Positions 4,207 to 25,957 of a DNA stretch of 64,000 nt are shown here, piece by piece. This DNA comes from Acetobacter oeni. GTDB lineage: Bacteria; Pseudomonadota; Alphaproteobacteria; Acetobacterales; Acetobacteraceae. Positions within the stretch are counted from its first letter, which is position 1. Every line of letters starts with the position of its first letter. Below the pieces are notes generated by a model. It was given only the letters and a program-made list of their open reading frames with translations. It made no database searches and had not been told where the DNA came from. A program made the position numbers and the translations under genes. Where the stretch lies: positions 62,001 to 126,000 of the forward strand of contig NZ_WOTA01000005.1 in the NCBI RefSeq assembly GCF_011516825.1, given 5' to 3'.

Positions 4207-7056
4207 TCAGAACGATTTCAGTAGCCGGTCAAGATATTCCAGTTCCTGAGGCGGACGTGTCCTGTCCGAATCACGCCGGCGAAGCTCTTCCTCGATCTCG
4301 TGCGCCCGCTCGCGCGACATCGCATCGGGGATATGGCCGCCCTGATTTGTCCCGCTATCATTGCCTTCTCCCGTCGCGCGGCCCAGCGGATCGCGGTCGG
4401 CGTTCTGATCGGAACCGGAGCCTTCATCGCTGCCGTCATCGCCGTCGTCGCCGGAGTCACCCGAGCCGCTCTGGTCATTGCCGCTGCCGTGACCGCCGCC
4501 GAAGGAGGGCACGAAACTCGTCGCCCCGGAACCGCCGCCCTTGCTCTGCAATGACTGCTTCATCTGCTGGCGGCTCTGCCGCAGATCCTGAAGCGCCTTC
4601 TGCTGCGCCGTCACCGCCTGAGAATCGTTGTTCTGCGCCAGCGCATGTCGCGCGTCCTTCATATCGGCCTGGGCTTTTGCGAATGCCGGGGGCGTCTTGC
4701 CTGTCAGTTCCTTAAATTCCTGGCTCAGTTCGTCCGTTGCCCGCATCAGCGCGTGCTGGGAGGCGCGGTCGGCCTGCTGCTGTTCCGCCGACGTGGCTTT
4801 CGCAGCGTCCGAATTCTCTGCCGGCCGGGGCTGAGAGGAATCCCCTTCCTGCGCGTTCTGGCCCTGATCATTCTGGCCCTGCCCGTTCGGCCTCGGAGCG
4901 GGCTGAGCATTCTGTCCGGGCTGAGGTTCGCTGCCCTCTTCACCTGGCGGAGGGACAAGACCCAGCTTCCGCAGAAGATCCTGCGTCGACATGGTTGAAA
5001 GGTCCTGGTCTCCGTCTTCATCCGGCGGAGTCATGCGGTCCCGCCGCGTCGCGTCGGCCCGGTGCGTCTTATCGATCCGTGACTGTGCGTGATCGAGCAG
5101 CGAGGTCTGCTGCTTTACCAGATCCTGCAAACCCGCCTCCTGCTCCTGCAACTTCTGCTGTGCCTGCATCTGCTGCGCCATCTGCGCCAGATCCTGTGGC
5201 GTTGCATTGCGCATCCGCTCGATGGAATCCTCAAGCTGTTGCAGCTTGTCGCTCGCACCCTCGCGCCCTTCGGCGGCATCGTCCTGAAGCTGCTTCATCA
5301 GTTGCTGAAATGCCCGGTCTCCGTTCTTCGACAGGCCCGGCAGATCCGGAACCGCTGTTCCGTCCCGCATTGCCTGTTGTGCGAGCGCCTGCATTTTGCG
5401 CGAAATCGCCTGTCTCAGCGCCTGCATCCGGCGCTGCAACTCGGCCTGTTCCTGCGGGCCGTGCGCGTTATCCTCGCGCATATGCCGAAGCTGCTGCTCC
5501 ACGGCTTCCTGCGCGGCCCGCACATCGATCGACGCCAGGGCGCCTTCAGAACCGCCATGCAGCCGGTCTTCGATATCCAGCGCGAGATCCCACAGCCGCC
5601 CGACGGCCTCGTCCCGCGCGGCATCGTCGGCGACGTCCTGATCTTCGAGCAGAGAAGCCGTTGCTGTCAGATTCAGAAACATTCCGGTATTTTCGGCGAT
5701 TGGTCCCGGTGTTTCACCCAGCGCCGCCAGATCTTCCGCCGCCGCGCTCCGCGATTCCGAACCCAGCGCCAGCCTTTTACGCAGGTCCAGCACGGCCCGC
5801 GCCACCGGCGACTTAAACTGCTGCGATCCGAGCGTGAACGTCACCGCCTGGCTTCGTCCTTCCTGGTGACTCACGCTGGTCGCCACCAGAACCGCCGAGA
5901 CCTGCTCTCCGGCCCATGGATCGGACGACAGATCGGGCGTGGCGGTCCCCTTTGCATCGATCGGATGGCCCGAGAGCGGCAACGGGATGCGCAGCACCCG
6001 TTTCTTCGCGAGGAAGGACGGGTGCGCGAGCCGCATTTCCACGACAAGTGAGGCAATCCCGTACGCATGATGCGCCTCGAACGGAATCCGCGTCCGGCGG
6101 CCGCCTTTTTCGCCGCCGGGGTCTTTGCCCCATTTGACTGACGGCACGGAGTCCGGCGCGACTGTAATATCCCATCGCGCGATTGTTCGCCCGCGTGCCC
6201 GGAGCGCGAGAACGCCCGAAGATTCAAGTTTCCCCTCGACGCGCCATGATCGCCTGTCCAGCGCCTTTAATGTCTGGCCTCCGAGATGCCCCGAAAGTTC
6301 CGGCGCGCCGTGCAGTCCGGTCACTGTTGCTGTCAGGACGGCGCCCTGGGGCACGGAGCCCGGGGCCGTGGCACCCGGTGACCCGGTCTGGCTCAGGAAA
6401 ACCGGGGCCGAAGGGGCATAGGCCGGCGGGGTAATCCATGCTTCCACATGCGGCATCGGCACATCCGGATCGTCCCATCCGGGGACGAACCCGGCCTCAA
6501 TCCGGCCGGGCGCGTGACTGCCCGCCAGCGCCGCCGCAATCACCACGGCCGGCACCAGCAGCAAAGCAGCCCGCCAGGGATCGCCCGATGCGAACCGCAA
6601 CTGCGGCCATCCTGTCCGCAGCGGCCCGAGCGCCGCGACAAGGCGGCTCTGATAGGCCGACCACAACGCTCCTGATCCGATCCCCGCCGAGCGGTCTGTC
6701 AGGCTGGCCAGTGGCCGGTTCCGCAATCCCGACGCCTGCTCGATCCGCTGGTCCGCTGCCGCGCCGGTCGGTGGCTGGTAACCACGCAGTCCCCGCCGCG
6801 CGAGGAGGCCTGTCCCCGCCAGGCATGCCAGTTCGACAAGACCGTGCAGCCAGTCCGGCAGTTGCTGCGGCACCCGCAGGAGTGTTGCCAGGACATAAAG
6901 CAACAGAACGGAGAGGGCCGGAATGAGCCGGCGGGCGACCTGTTCCGTTACGAGGACTCTGTGTGCTCTCCGCCGGGCGGCTTCCAGCATCGTCACCGTC
7001 GGAGGGAGGCCTGGCAGAACCGGGTCCGTGTTTCCGTGCTGCTGTGCGCCGCTCAT
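4207..7056 (-). CDS. Large membrane-anchored low-complexity protein, TIGR02302/DUF4175 type
   Basis: A 949-residue protein. Two membrane segments lie near the N-terminus (about 44-62 and 71-88), a third around 160-180, followed by a large soluble part. The middle (about 450-700) is rich in Gln, Ala and Glu and probably coiled-coil; the C-terminal third has Asp/Ser/Gly-rich low complexity (about 840-890) before a conserved tail ([14 protein letters not shown], then [11 protein letters not shown]). This matches the alphaproteobacterial TIGR02302 family, whose function is not established. Its ATG at 7056 overlaps the lysA stop (ATGA), so it is coupled to lysA, an arrangement common in alphaproteobacteria. 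I rejected a start at 7137 because it would overlap lysA by about 85 bases. Confidence 0.85.
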
Positions 7057-8396
7057 GCCGTCTGCTTGATCCATTCCGGAACCACTTCGTCCGCCCACAA
7101 AGTTTCCACGTTCTGACGTGGCCGGATCACCGACCATCGCTCGCCATCCACCAGAACCTGGGCTGCCAGTGTGCGTGAATTATACGTGGAACTCATCACC
7201 GCTCCGTAAGCTCCGGTGTCCAGCACGGCCACTCTCGCCCCGCGTTCCAGCCGGGGGAGCACCCGTGCCGGCGCGAATGTATCTCCCGACTCACAAACCG
7301 GGCCGACAACGGCGACTGTTTCCACATCGGCGACGGCATCGCGGGGTGATAAGGGGACAATTCCATGCCAGGCATCATAAAGAGAAGGCCTCAACAGATC
7401 GTTCATCGCCGCATCGAGAATGATGAACGGGACGCCGCCTGTCACCACCTTGCGCAGCACGACCGTTGACAGGAGCACACCGGCCGGCGCCGCGATCCAG
7501 CGTCCCGGCTCGATCGCCAGGCGTACGTCCAGGCCACCGAGCTCCGCGCGGATGGCACCGGCCCAGGCGTCCGGCGATCCTTCGCCTTCATCACGGTAAC
7601 AGATTCCCAGTCCGCCGCCGCAATCCAGCGCGCTGACGGGATAACCCGCTGCCCGCGTGGCTTTCACCAGCGTCGCCAGCCGGGCATAGGCCTCGCGGAA
7701 CGGTTTTGCCGACAGAATCTGGCTTCCGATATGCATCGCGTAGCCGGCGGGGCGGAGGCCTGGCAGTTCCGAGGCACGCCGGTAAAGCGCGAGCGCCTCG
7801 TCATACGGCACGCCGAACTTGTTTTCCGCCACGCCGGTCGTGATCTTGGCATGCGTGCCGGCATCGACGTCCGGATTCACGCGGAGCAGCACTGTCATCT
7901 CCCGGTTGCACGCGCTGGCGAGCGCCGAGAGAATCTCAAGCTCTTCGGCGCTTTCGACATTCACCTGGGCGATGCCTTCGGCCAAAGCCAGCCGCAGTTC
8001 CGCGTCTGTCTTGCCCACGCCGGAAAACACGATGCGGGAGGCTGGAATCCCTGCATTCCGCGCCCTTCGCAGTTCGCCGCCGCTGACTACATCCGCTCCG
8101 AACCCGGTTTCGGACAGGATTCTGAGAACCGCCACATGGTCATTCGCCTTCACCGCGAAGTGCGGCGCGACCGAAAGCCCGGCCTGCGTCATGGCGCCGA
8201 GCAGACGCTGCGCCCTTACCCTCAGCGTTCCCGCGCTCATCACCCAGCATGGCGTACCGACCTCATCCGCGATGGCGGAGAGCGGCACGCCTTCGAGCAT
8301 CAGCCCGCACTGCACATCGGATGTGAGCTGGGGATGCGTTGCGAGAAGGTCGCGCACGGTTGGGTCAGGGGTGGTAAAAACTGTCGGTTCGGCCAT
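7053..8396 (-). CDS. lysA: Diaminopimelate decarboxylase
   Basis: A 447-residue PLP enzyme of the alanine-racemase-like fold, catalysing the last step of lysine synthesis, meso-diaminopimelate to L-lysine plus CO2. The PLP lysine is in AVKAND (K83). HIGSQI, the Gly-rich DCGGGLG and the EPGR motif (phosphate and substrate binding) follow in order, and VCESGD near residue 368 carries the catalytic Cys from the partner subunit. The length is slightly above the usual 420. It is the first gene of a two-gene unit with the TIGR02302 protein, and is divergent from the small gene at 8574, so promoters for both should lie in 8397-8573. Confidence 0.96.
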   Translation of the reverse strand: MAEPTVFTTPDPTVRDLLATHPQLTSDVQCGLMLEGVPLSAIADEVGTPCWVMSAGTLRVRAQRLLGAMTQAGLSVAPHFAVKANDHVAVLRILSETGFGADVVSGGELRRARNAGIPASRIVFSGVGKTDAELRLALAEGIAQVNVESAEELEILSALASACNREMTVLLRVNPDVDAGTHAKITTGVAENKFGVPYDEALALYRRASELPGLRPAGYAMHIGSQILSAKPFREAYARLATLVKATRAAGYPVSALDCGGGLGICYRDEGEGSPDAWAGAIRAELGGLDVRLAIEPGRWIAAPAGVLLSTVVLRKVVTGGVPFIILDAAMNDLLRPSLYDAWHGIVPLSPRDAVADVETVAVVGPVCESGDTFAPARVLPRLERGARVAVLDTGAYGAVMSSTYNSRTLAAQVLVDGERWSVIRPRQNVETLWADEVVPEWIKQTA

Positions 8397-8573
8397 TCGC
8401 GCACGTTACCGGCTCCGCCTCCGCTCTCCAAGGGGCAACGCGGGGCTGCCGGCTGTTACATGGCAGATGGCCACCTGGCTGATCGGGGGACTTCAGAATA
8501 AACGTAGCCTTAACCGATTGGGTAAAGATAAAACGCGCGGCATGGGAACACACCCCCTGAACGGAGCCTGTGG

Positions 8574-8981
8574 ATGAGCAAAACCGCCCCCTGCCTGACC
8601 GGCTTCTGGAACGGGCAGTTCACCTATCCCCGCATCCTTAATCCGGAGCATTTCACCGCGTCTCTTTTTGAAGCGGACGGGCTGCTGGGGGGCAGCATTA
8701 CGGAGCGGGCGAGTTCCGGCACGGCCGGGGGGCTTCGCTTTCTCTCATCCGTGCATGGGAAACGGGATGGGTTTGCCGTCCGTTTCACCAAAACTTACGA
8801 AAGCGGCAGCCGTCAGCATGCTGTCATCTATACTGGCATGCTGAGTGGGGATGGCGCTGAGATCGAAGGGCGCTGGCATATCCCTGGCTCCTGGTCGGGG
8901 AAGTTCCTGATGATCCGCAATTCCGGTGTCAGTGCAGAAAGTGTGACCGAAACCGAGGAGCTCATCCAGGCGCGGTTCTGA
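8574..8981 (+). CDS. Small uncharacterised protein, predicted beta-rich
   Basis: A 135-residue protein without signal peptide or membrane segment. It begins with LTGFWNGQFTYP and has alternating short strand-like segments (FTASLFEADG, LGGSITERAS, FAVRFTKTYE, YTGMLSGDGAEIEGRW, WSGKFLMIR), a pattern suggesting a small beta-barrel or lipocalin-like sheet. Similar short proteins occur in other alphaproteobacteria as hypothetical proteins, from memory; no function is assigned. The codon use is normal for the window, so I take it as a real gene. It stands alone, divergent from lysA and followed by about 400 bases that end in a terminator-like structure. Confidence 0.7.
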   Translation: MSKTAPCLTGFWNGQFTYPRILNPEHFTASLFEADGLLGGSITERASSGTAGGLRFLSSVHGKRDGFAVRFTKTYESGSRQHAVIYTGMLSGDGAEIEGRWHIPGSWSGKFLMIRNSGVSAESVTETEELIQARF

Positions 8982-9383
8982 AATATCCATGCCACGGACA
9001 GGCGGGCGGGACATTTCAGGCAGGTATTCTGTTGCATATCCGACACGGTGAAAACCGGCTGAATAAAACGGTGATTATTATGCGGCCGGCTTTCCGGTTG
9101 CCGGAGAGGGTGCGGGCTACCGGACGACATCGTTGCAGGCTGATTTTCAGTATCCTGAACATCCCGGTGCAACCACAACTTTTCACGATGCGGCCATCCT
9201 GGGTGGCCAGTTCACAACGAATTTCTAATTCGCTCCCTGAAGGACGGACGTTACGGCAAGGATATTCACGTCGTGTTATGATCTGCTCCGGAGCTTTCCA
9301 GGTTTTCCTGTAAGCTCCGGTCAGATTCACGGCATGGCCTGAAAAAAATCATCTCTTCGTGGCGGTTGTGCCGCTTTTTTTCA
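8982..9383. other. Gene-free 402-base gap between convergent genes
   Basis: No convincing coding sequence. Short open frames exist on both strands (9032-9313 plus, 9016-9330 minus) but neither has a ribosome site or recognisable sequence. The right end holds a terminator-like structure described separately. A small RNA ending at that T-tract is possible but there is no direct support. Confidence 0.6.
9340..9383. terminator. Bidirectional terminator-like structure
   Basis: A perfect 9-base inverted repeat, TGAAAAAAA at 9340-9348 and TTTTTTTCA at 9375-9383, encloses an inner hairpin GCGG (9362-9365) / CCGC (9371-9374) with loop TTGTG. For plus-strand transcripts the inner stem is followed directly by seven T. 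For the minus strand a T7 tract also appears, but about 13 bases after the stem. It lies directly after the stop of the minus-strand aminotransferase, as expected between converging genes. Confidence 0.6.
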
Positions 9384-10577
9384 TCAGACAATCACCCGAT
9401 CCAGCGCGCCGCAGAACCGCTCCATTTCTCCGGCGGAGCCGACGGTGATTCGTGACGCATTCGGCCACACGGGCCAGTTTCGTCCGATATCGATCCCCTG
9501 TTCGGCGAAGGCTGCCTTGACGGGGCCTGCCGGTTTCTTCCAGTCCACGATAAACATGTTGGCGTCACTCGGGATATAGGTGATGCCGCGCTGGCGGAGA
9601 TGCGCGAATGTTGCTTCGCGCGCGGCGATCATTTCATTGCGACGGCGAACGATATTCTGTGCCTGCAAGAGGCTGGATGACCCGACGGCGACCGCTACGA
9701 TCGACAGTGTTCCGCTTTGATTTTTGCCGTCGTAGCGCATCATTTTCGCATGCAGTTCCGGCTTTGCGAACGAAAAGCCGAGCCTGAGTCCGGCCATGCC
9801 GAACAGCTTGGAGAATGTTCGCAGAACGATCACGTCCTGATTCTGCGCCACCAGATAAGCCGCGCTTTTTGCTTCGGAAAAATGCAGATAGGCCTCGTCC
9901 ACGAGCACAATGGAGCCGGCGGGCTTGTTCGCGACCAGCCAGGCGATATCCGCGACAGGGGTCAGCGTGCCTGTCGGGTTATTCGGCGAGCAGACATAAT
10001 AGACGCCCGCGTTCGGATCGGCGGCCAGCATCGCTTTCACATCAGTGGCGTAATTGTTTTCTGGCCGCAGCGGGACTTTCGTGCATTTTACATTCAGCCA
10101 TGCTGCTGTTCGCCAGGATGCCTCGAAGGTCGGGTCGGCTGTCACCAGGCCGCGTCCGGGCGAGCAGAAGGTGACGACCACACGCGAAAGCGGATCGCTT
10201 GAGCCGGGCCAGGGCAGAATGTGGCTTTCCGGCAGGGCTTCGACCTTTGATGCGTTGGTAATAAGCTGAGAGCGGAGGTCTCCCGGTTCGTAACGATTGC
10301 CCAGTTTTACTGTTGCCGCGCCTGCGACGGCGGCGGAAGGAAATGGCCCTGTCCAGCATTCGTTGGTGCCGATGCGCACCATATTCCGTTTATCCGGGCG
10401 GGACATTTCCGGGATATCCGTCGTCGTGGCGGCCCTGCCCGTGCTCATGAATTTCGGCAGTGTCGCTGCGGCGGCAACGGGCATTCCCAGCAGCGCCGCA
10501 ATACGACCAAACTGGCGACGGGAATAACCGCGGGCAAGAAGCTCCTCGCGGCCTTCTTTAGAAATCATCGACGTCAT
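9384..10577 (-). CDS. Tat-exported PLP aminotransferase, HisC-like (class I/II)
   Basis: A 397-residue fold-type I aminotransferase most like histidinol-phosphate aminotransferases. The active-site set is intact: SPNNPTG with Asn200, Asp227 and Tyr230 in VDEAY, the PLP lysine K257 in TFSKLFG, and an Arg in RITVGS near 381. Unlike HisC it starts with a twin-arginine signal: SRRQFG (19-24), then a hydrophobic Ala/Leu-rich stretch (about 27-42) and an Ala-rich end. This predicts export of the folded, PLP-loaded enzyme to the periplasm. The start is secure: AGGAGT precedes the ATG at 10577. It is a single gene. Its amino donor and acceptor are unknown; histidine synthesis is unlikely given the location. 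Confidence 0.87.
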   Translation of the reverse strand: MTSMISKEGREELLARGYSRRQFGRIAALLGMPVAAAATLPKFMSTGRAATTTDIPEMSRPDKRNMVRIGTNECWTGPFPSAAVAGAATVKLGNRYEPGDLRSQLITNASKVEALPESHILPWPGSSDPLSRVVVTFCSPGRGLVTADPTFEASWRTAAWLNVKCTKVPLRPENNYATDVKAMLAADPNAGVYYVCSPNNPTGTLTPVADIAWLVANKPAGSIVLVDEAYLHFSEAKSAAYLVAQNQDVIVLRTFSKLFGMAGLRLGFSFAKPELHAKMMRYDGKNQSGTLSIVAVAVGSSSLLQAQNIVRRRNEMIAAREATFAHLRQRGITYIPSDANMFIVDWKKPAGPVKAAFAEQGIDIGRNWPVWPNASRITVGSAGEMERFCGALDRVIV

Positions 10578-10985
10578 CCGGCACTCCTGACACGACCGGC
10601 TCCGTGCCGGCTCGGATGCCTAACTCTTTACCTGAGCAGAATGACTGTCAATATCCGGTGCGATTTCGCAACGACGGAACGTGTTGCCGGTCTGTTATAT
10701 GCCGTTCGCTCCGGGATTAAAGACAGAACTCCGGACTGCGTGTCTGAAACGGGAGAGGCACCCCTGTCGTCATCGGTCCCGGTATGCGGCAAACATGTCG
10801 TTCCCTGCCATTTGTCCTCTGTGGGATGATCCGTTTTCTTCGGTCCCTGCCCTCCCAATCCGGCACACCTGCCGCCCGCACTGTTCTGAACTCTTCATCT
10901 TGCCTGCCAGCCCGCTGCTTCCTATACATTTTTCCCCTGCCATCCCGGCAGCGAAGAGCCTGAAGAGCCTGTAGGACGTCCGGCC
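10578..10985. other. Divergent intergenic region, 408 bases
   Basis: Lies between two divergently transcribed aminotransferase genes, so it should hold both promoters. I see no coding sequence. There is a CCGGC/GCCGG hairpin close to the minus-strand gene (about 10596-10610) and a tandem nine-base repeat GAAGAGCCT at 10953-10961 and 10962-10970 just before the ribosome site of the plus-strand gene. No clear promoter match. Confidence 0.55.
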
Positions 10986-12230
10986 ATGACCGAAGAGTTC
11001 CACCGCATCCGTCGCCTTCCGCCTTATGTTTTTGCGGAGGTCAACAAGGCCAAGGCCGCCGCCCGGGCGCGGGGTGAGGACATCATCGATCTTGGGATGG
11101 GCAATCCTGACACGCCCACGCCGCCGCACATCGTCAAAAAACTGGTGGAAACGGTCGCTGATCCCCGCAGTCACCGCTATTCGGTGAGTCGGGGTATTCC
11201 CGGTCTCCGCAAGGCGCTGGCCGGTTATTATGAGCGCCGGTTCGATGTGAAGCTCGATCCGGAAACGGAGGTGATCGCCACGCTGGGCTCGAAGGAGGGC
11301 CTCGCCAATCTCGCTTCCGCGATCACCAGCCCCGGCGACACGATCCTGGTGCCGAACCCGTCCTACCCGATCCATCAGTTCGGTTTCATCATCGCCGGCG
11401 CTTCCGTTCGCTCCATTCCGGCTCATCCGGACGAGAACATGCTGCGTGCTCTGGAGCGTGCCGTGCGGCACTCCGTGCCGAAGCCCACGGCTCTGATCGT
11501 CAACTTTCCGTCGAACCCGACCGCCTATCTGGCCGATCTCGATTTCTATAAGGAAATCGTCGCGTTCTGCCGTAAGGAAGAGATCTTCATCCTTTCCGAC
11601 CTTGCTTATGCCGAGATCTATTTCGGCGATCTCGTGCCGCCGTCGATCCTTGCCGTGCCGGGCGCGAAAGACATTGCCGTCGAGTTTACGTCTCTGTCCA
11701 AGACCTATTCGATGGCGGGCTGGCGCATGGGGTTCGCGGCGGGCAACCCGCATCTGATCGCCGCTCTGACCCGGATCAAATCCTATCTCGATTACGGGGC
11801 TTTCACGCCGATTCAGGTTGCTGCCGTCGCGGCGCTCAGTGGTCCGCAGGATTGCGTCGCCGAAATCCGGGCGATGTATAAGGAGCGGCGCGATGTACTA
11901 CTTCGTGGTCTTCAGGGATCGGGCTGGGATATTCCTTCTCCTGAAGGATCGATGTTTGCGTGGGCGCCGATTCCCGAGCCTTTCCGCGATATGGGCAGCG
12001 TGGCTTTCTCCAAACTTCTGTTGCAGGAGGCTGGTGTTGCCGTTGCGCCGGGGCTTGGCTTCGGTGAACATGGCGAGGGCTTTGTCCGCATCGGGCTGGT
12101 CGAGAACACACAGCGCCTGCGTCAGGCAACACGCGCCATTCGCGGCTTTCTCAACGCACATGGCGTCGGGCCTGCTCAGCCGGCGTCGAAATCCGATAAA
12201 CAGCCGGTTCTGGAGGACAGCGCATCGTGA
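10986..12230 (+). CDS. alaC: Class I/II aminotransferase, AlaC / LL-DAP aminotransferase-like
   Basis: A 414-residue cytosolic PLP aminotransferase. Active-site residues are visible: Asn177 in FPSNPT, Asp205 and Tyr208 in SDLAYAE, K239 in SLSKTYSMAGWRMGF with Arg247. The sequence resembles the alphaproteobacterial group annotated as alanine transaminase AlaC or LL-diaminopimelate aminotransferase; in this group alanine/glutamate transamination with pyruvate is the better-supported role. The gene stop overlaps the GTG of hom (GTGA), giving a coupled pair, a common alphaproteobacterial arrangement. The ATG at 10986 is preceded by AGGA at about 10 bases. The symbol is tentative because substrate cannot be read from sequence. 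Confidence 0.85.
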   Translation: MTEEFHRIRRLPPYVFAEVNKAKAAARARGEDIIDLGMGNPDTPTPPHIVKKLVETVADPRSHRYSVSRGIPGLRKALAGYYERRFDVKLDPETEVIATLGSKEGLANLASAITSPGDTILVPNPSYPIHQFGFIIAGASVRSIPAHPDENMLRALERAVRHSVPKPTALIVNFPSNPTAYLADLDFYKEIVAFCRKEEIFILSDLAYAEIYFGDLVPPSILAVPGAKDIAVEFTSLSKTYSMAGWRMGFAAGNPHLIAALTRIKSYLDYGAFTPIQVAAVAALSGPQDCVAEIRAMYKERRDVLLRGLQGSGWDIPSPEGSMFAWAPIPEPFRDMGSVAFSKLLLQEAGVAVAPGLGFGEHGEGFVRIGLVENTQRLRQATRAIRGFLNAHGVGPAQPASKSDKQPVLEDSAS

Positions 12231-22819: not shown

Positions 22820-25800
22820 ATGAAAAATCTTTTGATTTGTACAACCTTTTTGACAATCGTTATTTTTCCTGTTGAAAGATCGGCTGCTGCGTCGCTGACG
22901 ATCAGTGATTCGTCGTCTTCGCCTGTGTCTTTGTCGGGAAACGATACGCTTACTGTTGACAGTGCCGGAGCACTGGCAACCGGGGACGAGAAAGCTGTCA
23001 CGCTTTCAGACCCGTCGGCTATCAGTATTACGACGGCGGCAGGCAGCACGATTTCCGGTGATGATGATGGGATTCATGCCAGTTCGACGACGGATGGCAG
23101 CGGAACGATCAGCATCGTTAATGACGGGACGATCCATAGTACTGGCGGTCAGAGCATTGATCTGGATGATGTGTCGGCTTCCGGCGTGACTACGACCATT
23201 ACAAATGGTGCCACGGGTCAGCTGATTTCAGATAATGCGGATGGCATCCGGCCTGGAAACAATGCCACTGTTATTAACAATGGTCTTATTTCGGCCAGCG
23301 GAGCAACCGGAGAAAGTCATGACGGGATTGATTTTCAGCAGTATTCGGGAACGGTAATCAATAAGAGTGGTGGTGTGATTACGGGAGAGCGTCACGGAAT
23401 TACGTCCTCAACCAACGTGGATGTCACGAATGAAGCGGGCGGGACGATTATCGGACGGAACGGGTCCGGTGTCGGGTCTGACGGGACGGGCACGGTCGTC
23501 AACTATGGCACGATTATTGGCTCTTATGACGGGTCCGGGCCTGGGGATGGTGACGGGGTTGATATTGACGGAGATTTCTCAGTCACCAATTACGGCACGA
23601 TTTCGGCGCAGGGGGCTGCGGGGTATGACAAAACAGGCCAGCTGAACGTTTCGGAAGGTGTGGCGCTGACCGGAAGCGGCACACTGACTAATGAGGCAAG
23701 CGGAGTTATTACGTCCACACAGGTAGGTGTGACGCTGTGCTGTAATGCGGGAACGCAGTCCTTTATCAATTATGGAAGTGTTTACGGGGCGGATGTCGGG
23801 TTTCGTTCGACACAGAGCACGGTGACGCTGACGAATTACGGGCAGATTTCAAGTGACCGTTTCGGGATCGATAATATTGCGAACTCCGGGCTCGCGTCTG
23901 TTCTGCTGATCGACAATTATGGCAGTATTTCCGGGGCGGCGGATGCGTTGTTTCTGGAAAACGGGACGACGACTGTGCTGACCGTTCATCCGGGCTCTGA
24001 GATCAATGGAGCGATCAGTCTTACAGGCTCGCTGACTGTGGACGCGGACACGGCTTACACGCTGTCCGGGGCTCTGAGCGGGACAGGCGATTTTACCAAG
24101 ACCGGTAACGGCACTCTTGTTCTTGCCGGGGATGCTTCCGGATATAGCGGGGCGGTAACCGTCAGTGCGGGCGCGCTTGAGAGCACGGCGTCCGGTTTTG
24201 GAAGTGGTGCCATTACAGATAATGCTTCTCTTGTACTTGCTCAGAAACAGGATGGAACGCTGACGAATACTGTCAGTGGCACCGGATCGCTGCTGAAGAC
24301 GGGGAGTGGCGATCTCACTCTGACGGCTGAGAATACGTATAGCGGTGACACGACTGTTGAGGCCGGGACACTGACTGTTTCCGGTTCTGTTGCTCAGTCC
24401 GCAGTTTCTGTTGAAAACGGCGCCACGCTGACAGGGACCGGCACAACAGGCGCGACGAGCGTTCAGGCGGGAGGGACGCTGAATACGGCGGTCAGCGGCG
24501 TCGGCACGCAGTTTCATGTAAATGGAAATCTGGGTTTGCAGTCCGGGTCAGATTATGTCGCGGCGGTCGGGACCAGCGGGAATGCCAGTCAGACCGTAGT
24601 GAGTGGCGCGCTGAATATTGGTCAGAGCACGCTTATAGCAGATTCAGCCGCAGGGGCTGTTCTTACAAAGGACAGCCAGTATACGCTGATTACTGCTGCG
24701 GGCGGGATTTCAGGGGCATTTTCATCGTTTCAGAGCAATCTCATCAATCCTTATTATTTCCTGTCACCGACGCTGGCTTACAGTACGGACAGTGTTTCTC
24801 TGCTGATGGCGCGTAACAGCCGCAGCTATGCTTCTGCGGCTGTTACGCGAAACGAGTATGGGGTGGGCAGTGCGCTCGATACGATGAGCGGGAGTTCGGT
24901 GATCAACGCTATTGAGGGGCTGGATGAGAGGGGGGCGCGGCACGCATATAATGCGCTGTCGGGTGAGATCCATGCTTCCGCGCGGACAAATCTGATCCAG
25001 GATGCTTTCTATATTCGTAATGCGGCTCTGGACCGGTTGCAGACGGCTGATTGCGTAAGCGGGGTCAGTTACAGCACTGTCAAAACTTCGGATCTGGCCG
25101 GGCATAGTACGGCGGGGTGCGATAATCGGGGGGCGGCGCTCTGGGGAACGGCTTACGGGGCATGGGGACGGAATGGTGGAGGAGGGAATGCCGGGGCCAC
25201 GCATCATGCGACCGGCGGGTTTATTATCGGGGCCGACACCATGGCTTTCGAGACCTGGCGTATCGGCGGACTTGTCAGTTATGGACACACGTCTTTTGAT
25301 ACGGGCGCGGTGAATTCATCCGGACATAGCGACGACGTGAGCGTTGGCGGTTATGCCGGCACACACTGGGGGCATATTCATTTCAAACTCGGTGCTTTTT
25401 ATAGCTGGGACATGCTGTCTGCGGTGAGGACGGCGGCTATCGCGGGCTATCGTGACCGCCTGAGCAGCAGTTATCCGGGCGGTACGGCGCAGAGTTTCGG
25501 GGATCTCTCCTACAGGTTTCATGTCGGAAAAACGGCTGAGGTCGAACCTTTTGCGAATGTGGCCTATGTAAATGTCCATACGAACCATTACCGCGAGAAT
25601 GGTGGTGCGGCGGCACTTGAGGGGCGCGCTATGGATACGGGGACGACGTATTCTACTTTCGGCGTGCGGGGCGGAGCGTCTTTCAGGCTGGGTGGAATCA
25701 CCCTGACTCCGAATGCCAGCCTTGGGTATCGTCATACTTACGGGCTGGTGACACCGACGACTCATGAGGCGTTTCGTAGCGGAAGCAGCGATTTTGAAGC

Positions 25801-25957
25801 AGCCGGAGCTTTGCTTGCCCGGGATGCGGCGGTGCTGAATGCGGGCATGTCGACCAGACTGACGGACCGGGTGGATGTCGGACTGTCTTATATCGGGCAG
25901 TATGGCAGGAACTACACGGACAGCGGACTTCGCGGGAAGGTGACGCTGAAGTTCTGA
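22820..25957 (+). CDS. Autotransporter with beta-helical passenger and C-terminal barrel
   Basis: A 1045-residue type V secretion protein. Signal peptide: MKN, hydrophobic segment to about residue 19, cleavage probably after SAAA (22-25). The passenger (about 26-720) is rich in Gly, Thr, Ser and Asn with many repeats of the form N-x-G-x-I (VINNGLI, VTNYGTI, FINYGSV, LTNYGQI, IDNYGSI), and two autotransporter-associated beta-strand repeats (GTLVLAG near 430; GDLTLTAENTYSGDTTVEAGTL near 500). The barrel (about 770-1045) ends in Phe (TLKF), the BamA recognition end. A Cys-Cys pair in the passenger and two Cys before the barrel are unusual. The start lacks a clear ribosome site. Adhesion is a guess; no protease motif is seen. 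Confidence 0.93.
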   Translation: MKNLLICTTFLTIVIFPVERSAAASLTISDSSSSPVSLSGNDTLTVDSAGALATGDEKAVTLSDPSAISITTAAGSTISGDDDGIHASSTTDGSGTISIVNDGTIHSTGGQSIDLDDVSASGVTTTITNGATGQLISDNADGIRPGNNATVINNGLISASGATGESHDGIDFQQYSGTVINKSGGVITGERHGITSSTNVDVTNEAGGTIIGRNGSGVGSDGTGTVVNYGTIIGSYDGSGPGDGDGVDIDGDFSVTNYGTISAQGAAGYDKTGQLNVSEGVALTGSGTLTNEASGVITSTQVGVTLCCNAGTQSFINYGSVYGADVGFRSTQSTVTLTNYGQISSDRFGIDNIANSGLASVLLIDNYGSISGAADALFLENGTTTVLTVHPGSEINGAISLTGSLTVDADTAYTLSGALSGTGDFTKTGNGTLVLAGDASGYSGAVTVSAGALESTASGFGSGAITDNASLVLAQKQDGTLTNTVSGTGSLLKTGSGDLTLTAENTYSGDTTVEAGTLTVSGSVAQSAVSVENGATLTGTGTTGATSVQAGGTLNTAVSGVGTQFHVNGNLGLQSGSDYVAAVGTSGNASQTVVSGALNIGQSTLIADSAAGAVLTKDSQYTLITAAGGISGAFSSFQSNLINPYYFLSPTLAYSTDSVSLLMARNSRSYASAAVTRNEYGVGSALDTMSGSSVINAIEGLDERGARHAYNALSGEIHASARTNLIQDAFYIRNAALDRLQTADCVSGVSYSTVKTSDLAGHSTAGCDNRGAALWGTAYGAWGRNGGGGNAGATHHATGGFIIGADTMAFETWRIGGLVSYGHTSFDTGAVNSSGHSDDVSVGGYAGTHWGHIHFKLGAFYSWDMLSAVRTAAIAGYRDRLSSSYPGGTAQSFGDLSYRFHVGKTAEVEPFANVAYVNVHTNHYRENGGAAALEGRAMDTGTTYSTFGVRGGASFRLGGITLTPNASLGYRHTYGLVTPTTHEAFRSGSSDFEAAGALLARDAAVLNAGMSTRLTDRVDVGLSYIGQYGRNYTDSGLRGKVTLKF

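Follow-up and report, generated by a model that had tools for sequence, protein, structure and literature searches.

A probable Tat-exported, HisC-like aminotransferase of Acetobacter oeni with relatives in acetic acid bacteria and sphingomonads

Among the described systems closest to the protein studied here, PtaA of pseudomonads is a periplasmic transaminase that is transported by the twin-arginine translocation (Tat) pathway and carries its pyridoxal phosphate (PLP) along; it is found also in species without pyoverdine (PMC6206403). PvdN is likewise a periplasmic, Tat-exported PLP enzyme, which acts in pyoverdine tailoring by a decarboxylation that keeps the amino group (PMC6206403). Both enzymes tailor pyoverdine, and they are the two periplasmic PLP enzymes with an assigned role that came up in the literature consulted (PMC6206403). 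A reporter assay has validated the Tat signal of PA2531 of P. aeruginosa, which is called an aminotransferase (PMC6085387). A search of a collection of open-licence papers gave none on the protein of acetic acid bacteria. A catalogue of proteins released by Asaia bogorensis lists, in the part available, an 'Aminotransferase hisC A0AAN4R5F7' (PMC12502724); as the accession is unmapped to a gene and the catalogue holds many cytosolic proteins, this entry is not counted as evidence.

The window, by which we mean the whole stretch of 64,000 nucleotides of Acetobacter oeni DNA that was analysed, contains an aminotransferase gene whose features are collected in Table 1. An earlier note on this DNA had given its coordinates correctly, without stating that it lies on the minus strand. 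The note also held that the ribosome site fixes the start. A Shine-Dalgarno sequence does precede the ATG and supports it as the start, but since codon 4 is a second in-frame ATG, the start is not strictly fixed. The gene stands alone, and a consensus scan of positions 8900-11000 revealed neither a sigma-70-like promoter nor a minus-strand terminator just past the gene, which is a weak negative in both cases. The neighbouring 135-aa open reading frame matches no Pfam or NCBIfam family at E 0.001. A function read from the neighbours in the window (lysA, this reading frame, the LL-diaminopimelate/alanine aminotransferase gene and a homoserine dehydrogenase-like gene) was rejected, because lysA has other neighbours in two congeners that lack the gene (G030 and G117; loci L145 and L146) and because the aminotransferase gene has its own ribosome site and orientation.

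Table 1. Features of the aminotransferase gene and its surroundings, in positions of the window.
Feature	Position	Strand	Basis or match
lysA	7053-8396	-	NCBIfam lysA model, over cut-off
135-aa ORF, on the same side of the aminotransferase gene as lysA	8574-8981	+	
CDS, 397 aa, predicted Tat-exported HisC-like aminotransferase (NF006580 subfamily)	9384..10577	-	one open frame
R376, presumed substrate carboxylate arginine, C-terminal	9450..9452	-	aligned to E. coli HisC R335
R265	9783..9785	-	aligned to E. coli HisC R222
K257, presumed Schiff-base lysine	9807..9809	-	aligned to E. coli HisC K214
Y230	9888..9890	-	aligned to E. coli HisC Y187
D227	9897..9899	-	aligned to E. coli HisC D184
N200	9978..9980	-	aligned to E. 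coli HisC N157
Predicted Tat signal peptide, residues 1-49, cleavage after A49	10431..10577	-	motif + conservation
Twin-arginine motif S19-R20-R21-Q-F-G24	10506..10523	-	motif + alignment
Shine-Dalgarno AGGAG	10584..10588	-	6 bases upstream of ATG at 10577
LL-diaminopimelate aminotransferase-type gene, other side of the aminotransferase gene	10986-12230	+	NCBIfam

Within the encoded protein, Pfam Aminotran_1_2 is found on residues 66-392 with 128 bits. The NF006580 (PRK09105) model matches residues 16-396 with 479 bits, above its cut-off of 444, and no difference was found from this subfamily, which is not named for a function. The fold and the PLP residues are shared with HisC (TIGR01141): 3ly1 ranks first in both the sequence and the fold searches of the PDB, and HisC-like enzymes lead among the matches listed. 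A structure model of the window protein reached a mean pLDDT of 84.4 and a pTM of 0.85. Unlike HisC, the protein carries a predicted signal peptide and reaches only 190.3 bits in TIGR01141, against a cut-off of 276.55, and the genome has its own HisC, which passes this model with 289.2 bits. A CobD-like enzyme of the same genome passes TIGR01140.

The complete fold-type I active site that had been proposed from Asn200, Asp227, Tyr230, Lys257 and a C-terminal Arg is correct; the C-terminal Arg is R376, and R265 can be added, so that the Asn, Asp, Tyr, Lys and Arg of this fold type and the carboxylate arginine are all present. All six residues are invariant in an alignment of 37 sequences, which consists of the window protein and 36 loci picked for spread out of the best 80 of 153, while the genome's own HisC carries Ala at the place of N200. 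We take the six residues to have their usual catalytic roles, with K257 as the Schiff-base lysine and R376 as the arginine that binds the substrate carboxylate; the matches to E. coli HisC are positions counted along the HMMER alignment to 1fg3.

The window protein begins with MTSMISKEGREELLARGYSRRQFGRIAALLGMPVAAAA..., and the SRRQFG motif pointed out earlier was confirmed at residues 19-24, with the hydrophobic stretch after it. Mean hydropathy is 1.54 over the 15 residues from F23, and the highest value for any 15 residues within residues 1-80 is 2.01. At the predicted cleavage site (residues 47-49), 29 of the 37 aligned sequences have A-x-A, whereas the window protein reads G-R-A; taken separately, Ala occupies -3 in 33/37 and -1 in 33/37. 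The N-terminus thus has the sequence features of a Tat substrate, namely S/T-R-R-x-hydrophobic, an h-region and a small-residue cleavage site, conserved in homologues, and TatC is encoded in the genome (243 bits, cut-off 25.1). As a background, 937 other genes, called in the window or at homologous loci, were screened for the motif [STN]RR.[FLIVMA] in the first 40 residues together with a hydrophobic stretch. Two of them have this combination; one has the look of a true Tat protein, and some true Tat proteins are missed at this cut-off. The combination of SRR motif and hydrophobic stretch in the window protein is more than chance.

Homologues starting downstream and lacking the signal, which the earlier note had named as counter-evidence, were looked for. 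Among the best 80 of 153 related stretches, 78 retain the arginine pair at the aligned place, and 60 of these 78 have an upstream start codon together with a Shine-Dalgarno-like run of at least 4 bases. The exceptions are L031, with W for the second R and no upstream start codon, and L062, in which the N-terminus is out of frame. L031 (8001-9173, Komagataeibacter melomenusus) is a second copy of the gene that looks decayed, with the intact copy L028 in the same assembly; in L062 (8001-9175, Asaia platycodi) the frame break at the N-terminus reflects either a decayed gene or an assembly error. Every one of the 63 non-HisC rows in the tree described below, PtaA among them, likewise has an RR-x-hydrophobic motif within its N-terminal 50 residues.

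The complete HisC-type active site, the conserved twin-arginine signal, the fairly conserved cleavage site, TatC and the separate HisC make it probable, as judged from sequence, that the window protein is a PLP aminotransferase of the PtaA/NF006580 kind which Tat exports to the periplasm. On the model of PtaA, it would fold and bind PLP in the cytoplasm, pass through Tat in the folded state and have its signal cut after about residue 49. In the periplasm it would then transaminate by a ping-pong mechanism, in which a keto acid present there returns pyridoxamine phosphate (PMP) to PLP. The earlier note had called such a periplasmic step an unusual extension. That it would be unprecedented is not supported, since PtaA is already known (PMC6206403, available in part) and passes the same NF006580 model (489.5 bits for PtaA of L103, which also reaches 672 bits in the PtaA model). 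Periplasmic transamination in acetic acid bacteria is plausible, shared by many species and not without precedent.

Members of the family occur in both acetic acid bacteria and sphingomonads; of the best 80 of 153 loci, 42 are of acetic-acid-bacterial and 38 of sphingomonad type. At E 1e-60, matches are present in 14 of 150 genomes of the Acetobacteraceae family and in 16 of 49 genomes of the genus, the own genome being included in both counts. Within these 49 genomes the window type is limited to the own genome and G481, and the 14 others carry a type that is 48-52% identical. In eight Sphingobium loci (L085, L086, L090, L092, L093, L097, L098 and L100) a tandem second copy of an exported-type aminotransferase lies just downstream. 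In an IQ-TREE phylogeny of 64 rows, which has several long branches and is rooted by midpoint only, the window protein joins Gluconacetobacter and G481 (support 100/97). PtaA falls with three other rows into another, weakly supported group (90/43), and both groups lie inside one set (100/99).

The window protein resembles PtaA (NF051461) as a HisC-like transaminase with a twin-arginine signal from the NF006580 subfamily, and a further likeness is that the PtaA gene, in the available account, lies as a rule outside the cluster of its pathway (PMC6206403). To PvdN it is similar as a predicted periplasmic, Tat-dependent PLP enzyme (PMC6206403, in part), but PvdN is not named among the solved relatives listed (best 60 of 61 by sequence, top 50 by fold). 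PA2531 resembles it as an aminotransferase with a Tat signal (PMC6085387). An orthologue of PtaA in function would tailor a siderophore or peptide-like product in the periplasm, converting a terminal glutamate to 2-oxoglutarate. The shared subfamily and the 300.2 bits in the PtaA model would fit this, as would the TonB receptors near the gene in relatives, for which FepA/CirA-like siderophore receptors are among the best-scoring named models, though far below cut-off. The score nevertheless misses the equivalog cut-off of 500, the identity to PtaA is 37%, the two proteins stand in separate tree groups, and no siderophore enzymes are found among the neighbour proteins scanned. That it is an orthologue of PtaA in function is therefore unlikely.

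Another question is whether the signal, once exported, is removed. Mean column entropy is 0.89 for columns 10-21 and 1.09 for columns 22-31, compared to 1.06 for the core, so that residues 10-31 of the signal are as conserved as the enzyme core, whereas residues 32-66 are variable (2.1-2.2). Core-like conservation is unusual for a throw-away signal, and an uncut signal could act as an N-terminal anchor, tethering the enzyme to the periplasmic side of the inner membrane. The presence of Ala at both -3 and -1 in 29 of the 37 sequences argues for cleavage instead, and in the Acetobacter rows linked to a TonB receptor the region before the arginine pair differs. We consider such an anchor quite unlikely.

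As to its role, the earlier view that no pathway hint exists holds for the window but not for relatives, in which transport and amino-acid genes recur near the gene. These were counted by tblastn; the codon-usage gene caller missed genes (the homologue itself is uncalled in L040, L043, L099 and several Acetobacter loci), and between the two methods the cupin count among the best 80 of 153 loci rose from 19 to 26 while TauE stayed at 11. A TonB receptor related to that of L028 lies 0.9-3.5 kb from the gene in 10 of these 80 loci (3 acetic acid bacteria and 7 sphingomonads) and is absent from the flank examined in 70. A search with the L028 receptor ranks the gene-linked receptor first in five of the seven sphingomonad genomes and second in two, with 1-3 matches per genome scoring at least as high as the weakest linked receptor; these seven were preselected, as their receptors cluster with the L028 query, and share in part one inherited operon, and related loci are not independent. 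A TauE/SafE permease adjoins the gene in 11 of the best 80 of 153 loci, all among the 38 of sphingomonad type and on the same strand in 8, and in three loci what we assign as an Lrp/AsnC-like regulator is found beside it. Three Novacetimonas loci (L039, L046 and L051) among the same best 80 of 153 hold a solute-binding/permease fusion and a DDAH/arginine-deiminase-like enzyme.

Within Acetobacter, a wider stretch was examined for 13 of the 14 genomes with the 48-52% type. Seven of these loci (L132, L136, L139-L142 and L147) have an amino-acid ABC transporter, a DDAH/ADI-like enzyme and an M20 carbamoylase, together with a 2-hydroxyacid dehydrogenase where one was called. Three have a TonB receptor beside the gene, in two cases between two copies of it, and three have neither a TonB receptor nor the amino-acid transport and carbamoylase set.

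In the acetic acid bacteria, a secreted cupin is found within 0.5 kb of the gene in 26 of the best 80 of 153 loci, all from this group, on the same strand in 25 and for the most part within the hopanoid operon. HpnC is present in 27 of the 80, in all 27 on the strand opposite to the aminotransferase gene, and in Gluconobacter, Asaia and their kin the cupin and aminotransferase genes are inverted between hpnC and hpnD (e.g. L041 and L045, about 7400-9200); the hpn families were confirmed on six example proteins. A role as a hopanoid enzyme was rejected. We read the pair as an old insertion, because it lies on the other strand and because in the stretches read from the window's genome neither gene is beside hpn genes, the cupin lying about 82 kb from the aminotransferase gene with no hpn neighbours in the 18 kb read. 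Over the genomes, the cupin occurs in 10 of 14 with the gene and in 9 of 136 without, the 150-genome sets behind the two counts being taken as the same set. This co-occurrence may follow phylogeny, and the cupin tracks part of the family.

On the whole, the neighbours in relatives point to amino compounds and transport, and not to one pathway, as they differ by lineage (hopanoid operon, GH20/permease, lysA/DAP region). The likeliest role appears to be a transamination of amino compounds in the periplasm that is linked to uptake. In this role, an amino acid or amino-bearing compound entering via the TonB receptor would be deaminated or tailored, and the keto acid would be fed to uptake or catabolism; we propose this job tentatively, as it is drawn from the neighbours of relatives. 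It is less sure than the export of the protein; the neighbour links are found in relatives and not at the window gene. Somewhat more doubtful is a periplasmic pathway for amino compounds common to acetic acid bacteria and sphingomonads, with TonB receptors of one subfamily for entry of the substrate, the Tat-exported transaminase of HisC type for removal or exchange of its amino group in the periplasm, and a TauE/SafE permease or an ABC system for the product. If so, transamination outside the cytoplasm would be coupled to uptake, a role that we did not find described for PtaA in the available portions of its account (PMC6206403). The width of the family, its conserved Tat signals and the transport genes that recur near it suggest that transamination in the periplasm extends beyond pyoverdine tailoring. 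What sustains a PLP cycle outside the cytoplasm, and on which substrate, becomes a testable question in acetic acid bacteria that are easy to grow, for example Gluconobacter oxydans and Asaia.

Another role would be in the oxidation of amino acids in the periplasm, in which the enzyme, as partner of an exported L-amino acid oxidase and of a cytochrome c, would make or use the keto acids formed there. In L028, two flavin amine oxidases, one of them with a Tat-like N-terminus, and a TonB receptor are found around the gene. On another contig of the window's genome (G000:C4:103095-107825, equal to L151 8096-12826), a related TonB receptor, a Tat-like flavin amine oxidase and a cytochrome c stand in a row. 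This cluster resembles lao-cccA-ridA of Gluconacetobacter diazotrophicus, for which the available text describes a Tat-signal L-amino acid oxidase that converts tryptophan to indolepyruvate and genes for cytochrome c and RidA, and differs from it by the added receptor (PMC5053998). However, a flavin amine oxidase is found beside the gene in 1 of the best 80 of 153 loci (L028), the cluster of the own genome is on a contig other than that of the gene, and the exported L-amino acid oxidase does not track the gene, being present in 3 of 14 genomes with it and in 25 of 136 without. The partnership predicted from L028 and the own-genome cluster is thus not supported by co-occurrence, and is very unlikely.

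Finally, an additional HisC or a general amino acid aminotransferase, located in the cytosol and with an N-terminus that only looks like a signal, would explain the HisC fold, the 190 bits in TIGR01141 and the modelling of the N-terminal 30 residues as helices (block pLDDT 71-84), as a folded arm might be, but it is rejected as highly improbable, as the HisC cut-off is missed and the genome has a better HisC, 78 of the best 80 of 153 loci retain the arginine pair, after which come an A-x-A site conserved in most sequences and a variable linker, TatC is present, and PtaA of the same architecture is exported (PMC6206403, available in part).

Elsewhere in the window, a long protein (about 1008 aa as called) is encoded on the plus strand at 22931-25957, which by eye is repetitive and adhesin-like.
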